Shown: positions 48,889 through 50,692 of the stretch, piece by piece
How the letters are laid out: each line of letters starts with the position of its first letter
How positions within the stretch are numbered: position 1 is the first letter of the stretch
Origin: Flaviflexus equikiangi
GTDB lineage: Bacteria > Actinomycetota > Actinomycetes > Actinomycetales > Actinomycetaceae
Direction: 5' to 3'
Length of the DNA: 64,000 nucleotides
NCBI RefSeq assembly: GCF_014069875.1
Contig: NZ_CP059676.1
Coordinates: 1,612,001 to 1,676,000 of the forward strand
The notes under the pieces: generated by a model
Told to the model about the DNA's origin: nothing
The model's database searches: none
Seen by the model: the letters and a program-made list of their open reading frames with translations, nothing else
Made by a program: the position numbers and the translations under genes

Positions 48889-48975
48889 GCGAACGGGACT
48901 TGCCCAGTGGCAAAGGTCATGAAACTATAGCCATGAGCAACTAGCTGATCTTTTAACTATTTCCAGGAGGCGATC

Positions 48976-49035
48976 ATGGGCACACTGATCCCCACATCCT
49001 CCTGTGTCTGCTGTCGCTGCCTGATCTGTCTGTAG
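48976..49035 (+). CDS. Cysteine-rich leader peptide upstream of cysK
   Basis: 19 codons from ATG 48976 to TAG, encoding MGTLIPTSSCVCCRCLICL with Cys at 10, 12, 13, 15 and 18. Perfect AGGAGG (48965-48970) five bases before the ATG, the best ribosome site in the area. Five Cys codons in 19, directly before the cysteine operon, indicate a sensor of Cys-tRNA supply: ribosomes would stall there when cysteine is short. Codons 8-10 contain CCTCCT (48998-49003), complementary to its own AGGAGG and, as TCCTC (48997-49001), to the GAGGA of cysK. Poly-Cys short ORFs act as cysteine-responsive attenuators in mycobacteria. Confidence 0.85.
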   Translation: MGTLIPTSSCVCCRCLICL

Positions 49036-49076
49036 AGTGCCGGGCTCCAAAGGTGCGCTTTCCGCACGCCCGACAC
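49036..49076 (+). promoter_or_regulatory. Stem-loop between the leader peptide and cysK
   Basis: AGTGCCGGGC (49036-49045) pairs with GCCCGACACT (49067-49076) with one mismatch, enclosing a GTGCG/CGCAC hairpin. No T-run follows, so it is more likely part of a translational switch than a terminator. It begins at the leader stop codon. Confidence 0.55.
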
Positions 49077-49127
49077 TCATACCCTTCATAGACCGATCCA
49101 CTCCACGACTATTCTTGAGGACCAAAC

Positions 49128-50063
49128 ATGTCTCGTATCGCATCTGACGCAACCCAGCTCATCGGCAACACGCCCCTCGTCCGCATCAACAACCTCTTCC
49201 CCGACTCGAAGGCGACCGTTCTCGCGAAGCTCGAGTTCTACAACCCAGCCAACTCCGTCAAGGACCGCATCGGTGTCGCCATCGTCGACGCGGCCGAGAA
49301 GTCGGGACAGCTTCCCGCCGGCGGCACGATCGTCGAAGCCACATCGGGCAACACCGGTATCGCCCTCGCCTTCGTGGGAGCCGCACGCGGCTACAAGGTC
49401 GTGCTGACGATGCCGTCGTCGATGTCGAAGGAGCGCCGCGCCCTGCTTCGCGCCTACGGTGCGGAGCTCATCCTCACGGAGCCCTCCGAGGGCATGCGAG
49501 GCGCCGTCGCCAAGGCTGAGGAGGTTGCGAAGGAGCGCGAGGGTGCGGTGCTCGCATCGCAGTTCGCGAACGAAGCGAATCCTGCCATCCATGAAGCCAC
49601 GACCGGTCCCGAGATCTGGAATGACACGGACGGCGACGTCGCGGCTCTCGTCGCCGGCATCGGCACAGGCGGCACGATCACCGGCACGGGACGCTACCTG
49701 CGCTCCCAGAACCCGGACATCAAGCTGTTCGCCGTGGAGCCCGCCGAGTCCCCGCTCCTGTCCGGAGGCAAGGCCGGCCCGCACAAGATCCAGGGCATCG
49801 GCGCGAACTTCGTGCCCGACGTCCTCGACACGGAGATCTATGACGAGGTCATTGCGGTGCCCTCGGAAGATGCCTTCACGTGGGCGCGCGCTGCCGCGAC
49901 GAAGGAAGGCCTCCTCGTCGGCATCTCCTCCGGCGCGGCTCTCAAGGCTGCCGGCGAGATCGCGTCCCGCGACGAGTTCGCGGGCAAGACCATCGTCGTC
50001 ATCATCCCGTCCTTCGGCGAACGCTACCTGTCGACACCCCTCTTCGAAGGCCTGGTGGACTGA
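49128..50063 (+). CDS. cysK: Cysteine synthase (O-acetylserine sulfhydrylase)
   Basis: PLP enzyme making cysteine from O-acetylserine and sulfide. 311 residues. PLP-binding Lys45 in [11 protein letters not shown], phosphate/substrate loop [12 protein letters not shown], and [22 protein letters not shown] precedes the ATG by six bases. First enzyme gene after the leader; cysE follows after two bases. Confidence 0.98.
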
Positions 50064-50065
50064 CC

Positions 50066-50647
50066 ATGATCTTCTCGCTTGGCGCCTCTCTCGGCACCCT
50101 CCTCAAGGAAGATCTTGAGGCGGCGCGCAAGCGGGACCCCGCCGCGCGTACGCCCCTCGAGGTCGCTCTGGCCTATCCCGGGGTGCACGCGCTATGGGCG
50201 CACCGCATCGCTCACGCGATGTGGAACTCATCGGATCGTCTCAAGCTCCCTGCCCGTCTCCTCTCCCAGATAGCCCGCTCCATCACCGGTATCGAGATCC
50301 ACCCGGGCGCTAGCCTGGGGCGCCGCATGTTCATCGATCACGGTATGGGAGTGGTCATCGGGGAGACGGCAGAAGTGGGCGAAGACGTCATGATCTACCA
50401 CGGCACCACTCTCGGGGGCGTGTCCCTCAGCAAGGGCAAACGTCATCCGACTGTCGGCAATCGGGTCACGATCGGTGCGGGAGCGAAGATTCTCGGCCCC
50501 ATCACACTCGGTGACGACAGCCAGGTCGGCGCCAACGCCGTCGTGATCCGCGATGTTCCCGCGGGCGTCACAGCGGTCGGTGTCCCGGCGAAGAACCGAG
50601 CAGTCCCCGTCTTGGAGCCCGCCGTCGATCCGGCGATCTGGATCTGA
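50066..50647 (+). CDS. cysE: Serine O-acetyltransferase
   Basis: Supplies O-acetylserine to CysK. 193 residues, the short form. ATG 50066, two bases after the cysK stop. Left-handed beta-helix with [43 protein letters not shown] and [24 protein letters not shown]. The C-terminus ends PAIWI: the terminal Ile is the residue that docks into the CysK active site to form the cysteine synthase complex in other bacteria. A long terminator follows. Confidence 0.97.
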
Positions 50648-50664
50648 GAGTCGAACGATGAACG

Positions 50665-50692
50665 GGAAGGGCGGCCCTCGGGCCGCCCTTCC
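50665..50692. terminator. Terminator after cysE
   Basis: Perfect 13-bp stem (50665-50677 with 50680-50692) 17 bases after the stop; tight two-base loop. Confidence 0.85.

Follow-up and report, generated by a model that had tools for sequence, protein, structure and literature searches.

A Shine-Dalgarno-led cysteine leader joined to a covarying hairpin, a probable ribosome-mediated attenuator of cysK-cysE in Flaviflexus equikiangi and its family

Introduction

What is a 19-codon, cysteine-rich ORF doing in front of the cysteine synthesis operon of Flaviflexus equikiangi, and how might it act on that operon with a single hairpin set at its stop codon? Leaderless polycysteine short ORFs have reportedly been found and tested in mycobacteria, where stalling on the Cys codons is said to have been proposed to relieve the sequestration of a downstream ribosome site. 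More broadly, Cys leaders upstream of cys or cbs genes have been predicted for Mycobacterium, Propionibacterium acnes and Bifidobacterium longum, those of mycobacteria having no conserved hairpin able to serve as a terminator (Seliverstov et al. 2005, PMC1262725), and two other publications describe the cysteine genes of M. smegmatis as being under translation attenuation via Cys-rich short ORFs (PMC9094748, PMC13236596). Here, we report the computational analysis of a stretch of 64,000 nucleotides of the F. equikiangi genome (contig NZ_CP059676.1, positions 1,612,001 to 1,676,000; hereafter the window, with position 1 as its first letter) and of the homologous loci in related bacteria.

Results

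The leader ORF and the operon that follows it

The Cys-rich leader ORF, which appears in the ORF listing and has homologous leaders in relatives, lies at 48976-49035 of the forward strand and encodes MGTLIPTSSCVCCRCLICL*, with five Cys among 19 residues (codons ATG GGC ACA CTG ATC CCC ACA TCC TCC TGT GTC TGC TGT CGC TGC CTG ATC TGT CTG TAG). A Shine-Dalgarno sequence, AGGAGG (48965-48970, forward strand), can be read directly 5 nt upstream of its ATG, and most of the 78 homologous leaders described below likewise have an SD-like sequence ahead of their start codon. The preliminary description of this DNA had proposed exactly such an ORF, of 19 codons, with five Cys codons and a ribosome site, ending 92 bases before cysK and led by a Shine-Dalgarno sequence rather than leaderless, and the sequence bears out both its position and its architecture. 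On both strands of the 64-kb window, it is the sole SD-led ORF of at most 40 codons with at least three Cys among its last 12 codons.

The operon itself is compact. cysK, coding for cysteine synthase A (49128-50063, forward strand; TIGR01139, 442.9 bits against a cut-off of 350.95, E 5e-133), has a directly readable Shine-Dalgarno sequence, GAGGA, at 49117-49121 of the same strand, and is followed after 2 nt by cysE, coding for a serine O-acetyltransferase of the EpsC type (50066-50647, forward strand; NF041874 and TIGR01172 above cut-off, the latter with E 2e-71). Directly 3' of cysE is a perfect GC-rich inverted repeat without a U-run (50665-50692, arms of ~13 bp); if this repeat ends the operon, terminator hairpins of this genome may do without a U-tract. 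On the other side, a promoter scan found no consensus promoter at the locus, and a short inverted repeat, TTGCC-cagt-GGCAA (48900-48913), which the nearest relatives keep in part, lies upstream of the leader.

Distribution of the leader and of its hairpin

A mechanical search for leaders with at least three Cys in the region before cysK was positive at 55 of the 199 related loci; dinucleotide shuffles of these regions yielded 4.2, and their reverse complements three. The closest relatives within the genus have the leader peptides MSTTRPFLLCCLFCR, MMCPFLRCCLFCR, MGASFVALVSCACLNCL and MGASLIVLVSCACLSCL, which differ nearly everywhere except in the C-terminal Cys cluster; that cluster is also kept at the C-terminal end of the peptide of a more distant member, MITCRCSACVCCLVGAGL. 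Conservation of the Cys codons in relatives, the check asked for in the preliminary description, was thereby strongly borne out: the peptides diverge freely, while the Cys cluster, the Shine-Dalgarno sequence and the hairpin persist, in every case before cysK.

A covariance model of the hairpin element, R1, matches the complete 2.34-Mb genome of F. equikiangi exactly once, at the leader site (E 5e-10), and the idea of several loci of one genome sharing this hairpin-bearing element was rejected on that account. R1 also matches 77 of 151 genomes of the host family, distributed over 20 of 36 genera and nearly always with one match per genome, and all of the 78 matches examined sit before cysK. 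When the search was extended to 396 genomes of the order, 24 matches were obtained, all within the host family, and among 297 genomes of the class the own genome alone was matched, so that the element is essentially confined to the family. Short ORFs are generally frequent, and a chance ORF lying beside a chance hairpin could be imagined from that alone; however, no comparable SD-led Cys-rich ORF arose in 20 order-1 Markov copies of the window, and a covarying element conserved across 20 genera leaves coincidence a negligible probability.

Each of the 78 matches has a start, a short ORF and an in-frame Cys codon. These leaders range from 12 to 30 amino acids and from one to seven Cys, with at least two Cys codons in 76 and a single one in the remaining two, and their other residues are variable. 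A small Cys-rich peptide with a function of its own, in metal binding or otherwise, and with the hairpin as its terminator, would be in keeping with the strong Shine-Dalgarno sequence and the stable hairpin at the stop codon, but it is very improbable, given that length, number of Cys and all other residues vary, and that the element is nearly always single-copy and placed before cysK, which a terminator there would cut off. Because the Cys cluster and the Shine-Dalgarno sequence are kept and the rest of the peptide is not, we infer that Cys-tRNA is sensed at the codon level.

Two further leaders before cysK deserve mention, those of an Isoptericola MAG (L180) and of Actinotalea fermentans (L184). 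Both are SD-led, have at least six Cys and carry a larger hairpin at the stop codon that begins with the same TGTCT.TAGRGCG as the element, and R1 does not match them; they are probably a wider-branching form of it.

A single covarying hairpin at the leader stop codon

The conserved hairpin, delimited by covariation, R1 and folding, occupies 49035-49078 of the forward strand. It consists of a lower stem, P1 (49035-49045 paired with 49068-49078), a bulge of seven nucleotides in the 5' strand (49046-49052) and an upper stem, P2 (49053-49057 paired with 49063-49067), with a folding energy of -22.7 kcal/mol and a z of about -4.1. The stem-loop earlier placed at the stop codon is therefore present, with a slight correction: P1 begins on the third nucleotide of that codon, G49035, and has a single C-A mismatch in F. 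equikiangi.

Aligned from their final Cys codon, the homologous sequences show almost no gaps across P1. Read from the stem of the window, 95.5% of the alignment cells of P1 are standard pairs, with two-sided changes in nine of its 11 pairs, and the covariation score of the whole structure (0.454) exceeds those of shuffled alignments (0.225) and of structures with the partner slid (at most 0.166). RNAalifold recovers the same P1 unprompted; P2 is present but slides within the alignment and is paired in 71.5%. The hairpin is thus a covarying RNA element, and with the ORF, the Shine-Dalgarno sequence, the Cys cluster and an invariant UGU codon it is inherited as one unit, exclusively before cysK.

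Averaged over the family's leaders, folding z is -2.87 in the hairpin, compared with -0.12 in the ORF and +0.26 in the stretch to cysK, and folding energy revealed no second conserved hairpin or antiterminator besides P1/P2. An intrinsic terminator was rejected as an identity for the element, since it has no U-tract and the terminator scan returned none, and so was a T-box riboswitch or other Rfam RNA, since neither the region of the window nor eight relatives gave an Rfam match and the UGU lies within a short ORF.

An invariant UGU at a fixed distance from the stem

The last Cys codon of the leader is UGU (49027-49029, forward strand), 8 nt 5' of the stem base. UGU is also the final Cys codon of all 78 homologues, and UGC of none, a count to be read knowing that the training sequences of R1 were anchored at this codon and were all TGT, which biases it toward TGT matches; R1 matches scoring far above threshold with TGC at the anchor would nonetheless have been detected, and there were none. 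By comparison, UGU makes up 55 of 181 (30%) of the other leader Cys codons and 185 of 794 (23%) of those in the flanking long ORFs. Even leaders with only one or two Cys codons keep the final UGU, and the base after it is C in 71 of 77.

Counted from the start of this codon, the stop lies at 6 nt in 63 leaders, at 21 nt, inside the bulge, in 14, and at 3 nt in one. Among the non-identical leaders that stop early, 23 of 62 also keep an in-frame stop at +21, where stops in the neighbouring registers are almost absent. The alternative frames are open through the stem, as they would be anyway because the stem is GC-rich, and their openness is therefore uninformative on frameshifting at the stop.

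The near-invariance of UGUC as nucleotides (positions 0 to +3), the choice of UGU over UGC, which coding does not require, and a partly conserved bulge could be taken to mean that P1 and UGUC form an RNA element for a protein or metabolite, to which the Cys-rich peptide would be secondary. However, the UGU never falls outside the reading frame of a short ORF, and 76 of 78 leaders have at least two Cys codons in a peptide otherwise unconserved, which is the mark of codon-level sensing; together with the lack of an Rfam family match, this makes a ligand-binding element unlikely.

Pairing with the ribosome-binding sites

A UCCUCC sequence that precedes the first Cys codon (48997-49002, forward strand) complements the leader's own Shine-Dalgarno sequence over 6 bp and, in part, that of cysK. 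Its duplex with the leader Shine-Dalgarno sequence of the window has -15.6 kcal/mol, with p 0.00 against shuffles of the Shine-Dalgarno sequence and p 0.11 against codon shuffles. When partners were swapped among 57 non-redundant leaders, the segment before the last Cys codons preferred its own leader Shine-Dalgarno sequence (z -3.6 to -4.2), and the segments from -24 to -7 and from -4 to +9 preferred the ribosome site of their own cysK, with z of about -2 to -3; no comparable signal came from two control targets. These z-values are modest and uncorrected for the segments tried. In the loci L025 and L028, the leader Shine-Dalgarno sequence AGAAGGAGGG complements the codons just before the Cys run, CCCTCCTTCT, a complementarity that suggests feedback on leader initiation.

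The segment containing the UGU pairs strongly with the cysK Shine-Dalgarno sequence in seven relatives, L091, L271, L084, L244, L018, L113 and L066, with near-perfect complements in L091 (CCUGUCUGAGG/UCUCAGAUAGG), L271 (CCUGUCUAU/AUAGACAGG) and L084 (CUGUCGGUGG/CCACCGACAG); this near-perfect subset consists mainly of short leaders, often with the stop in the bulge. Once a ribosome covers the UGU, the predicted paired fraction of the cysK Shine-Dalgarno sequence falls from 0.94 to 0.22 in L063, from 0.75 to 0.24 in L244 and from 0.83 to 0.42 in L271; in the window, a stalled ribosome does not free the sequence, whose predicted pairing is 0.74 before and 0.79 after. A good complement of the UGU segment at the cysK Shine-Dalgarno sequence is absent in the window and in most relatives (mean p 0.54; p at most 0.05 in nine of 78), and the overall duplex energies of the Cys region with the ribosome site are no better than those of shuffles. 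The idea that the UGU segment pairs with the cysK Shine-Dalgarno sequence throughout the family was consequently rejected, such pairing being strong in a minority only.

Discussion

We regard the element as an SD-led, cis-acting, ribosome-mediated cysteine attenuator of cysK-cysE, to which we assign a probability of about 80%. From its sequence and conservation, a ribosome short of Cys-tRNA on the leader probably raises cysK-cysE expression. In the mechanism proposed, the ribosome would load at AGGAGG and translate the leader; with scarce Cys-tRNA it would stall on the C-terminal Cys codons, which end with the invariant UGU set against the base of P1, and would hold the leader mRNA in a state permissive for cysK-cysE. 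With plentiful Cys-tRNA, it would reach the stop codon and depart, the leader would refold around P1 and expression would drop. Translation of the leader, stalling as the signal and the rise in expression at cysteine shortage are all inferred here.

The effector step is the least certain, and our first choice is translational: a pyrimidine-rich segment at and just before the Cys codons, brought close to the cysK Shine-Dalgarno sequence by P1, may sequester a ribosome-binding site. We rank this sequestration first, on the strength of the pairing, folding and swap-test predictions, which favor it in part of the family only, and transcription control assisted by the hairpin or by Rho second.

The transcriptional version keeps the same sensor. 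P1 would either make RNA polymerase pause or terminate with no U-tract to help it, or cooperate with Rho, which would act on the C-rich sequence that separates P1 from cysK; interference by the stalled ribosome would then give read-through into cysK. P1 is the only structure conserved in the leader, most species show no clear sequestration of the cysK ribosome site, the stretch that follows P1 is unstructured, with a C-over-G skew of 0.26 compared with 0.13 before cysK in element-free genomes, and the hairpin downstream of the operon likewise has no U-run. Against this stand the terminator scan, which finds no terminator-like site, the presence of at least five T in the 9 nt after P1 in just six of 78 leaders, and the geometry of the ribosome. 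Judging from usual ribosome dimensions, a ribosome that holds UGU in its A site would have the first stem base at its mRNA entry, at about +12 counted from the base that opens the P site, and would cover no more than the first few nucleotides of the stem; one whose A site has advanced to the stop codon would cover the whole 5' arm of P1. A ribosome stalled at UGU would therefore leave the hairpin largely intact, which speaks against terminator occlusion and for a hairpin folded during the stall; and because the ribosome at the stop codon covers more of P1 than the stalled one, blocking of the hairpin alone would predict regulation in the opposite direction, unless the ribosome is released quickly. 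Transcriptional control retains an appreciable likelihood, if below even.

This geometry also allows a more specific, and tentative, version of the attenuator, in which the hairpin is fixed to the end of the leader so that its base meets the mRNA entry when the wobble-read UGU is in the A site. The stem would then time or strengthen the stall, no alternative hairpin or U-tract would be needed, and UGUC would serve as the anti-Shine-Dalgarno sequence of cysK in some lineages. If this doubtful reading were true, it would be a structurally new kind of attenuator.

With the classical attenuators of trp, his and ilv, the locus shares a leader peptide rich in codons of the operon's amino acid, but it has neither a U-tract terminator nor a mutually exclusive antiterminator, and because it lacks both the U-tract and a second conserved hairpin it is not one of them. 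It resembles Rho-dependent control of the TnaC type in that a leader peptide is followed by a C-rich untranslated stretch; in contrast to that type, no Rho-site arrangement is evident at the stop, and the Cys codons are clustered as in sensors of tRNA charging. The closest likeness is to the cysteine leader-peptide attenuators of Actinobacteria, in which Cys codons likewise stand in a run close to where a short ORF stops, and no terminator is obvious (PMC1262725): here too the run lies near the stop before a cysteine synthesis gene, and Cys is conserved as the other residues vary. Unlike the mycobacterial leaders of that study, however, the element has its stop codon joined to a hairpin that is strongly conserved. 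Like the mycobacterial leaderless polycysteine ORFs, it is a short Cys-rich ORF before a cysteine-metabolism operon, but it is SD-led, stands before cysK-cysE, is flush with a covarying hairpin, ends its Cys run in an invariant UGU and occurs once per genome, and ribosome-site sequestration, the mode of action put forward for those ORFs, is predicted clearly in some of its relatives and not in the window. The element of the window is thus an SD-led, hairpin-bearing form among the known cysteine leaders.

Control of cysteine genes by leaders in actinobacteria accordingly reaches beyond the leaderless mycobacterial form, and the host family gains a structured RNA element matched by no Rfam model. 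The 78 aligned natural variants, which include relocated stops and leaders with a single Cys codon, make the action of a terminator-free leader directly testable.

A second family of Cys leaders was observed before cysK in freshwater and other small-genome actinobacteria, with a conserved body, FTRRRVIDFGR, and C-terminal Cys codons. Its members (L133, L145, L149, L158, L190, L193, L195, L198, L204 and L210) lie about 55-180 bases before cysK. They are apparently leaderless, to judge from the TAAAAT-like -10 sequence that several of them (L133, L149 and L193) have a few bases 5' of the ATG, with no Shine-Dalgarno sequence.
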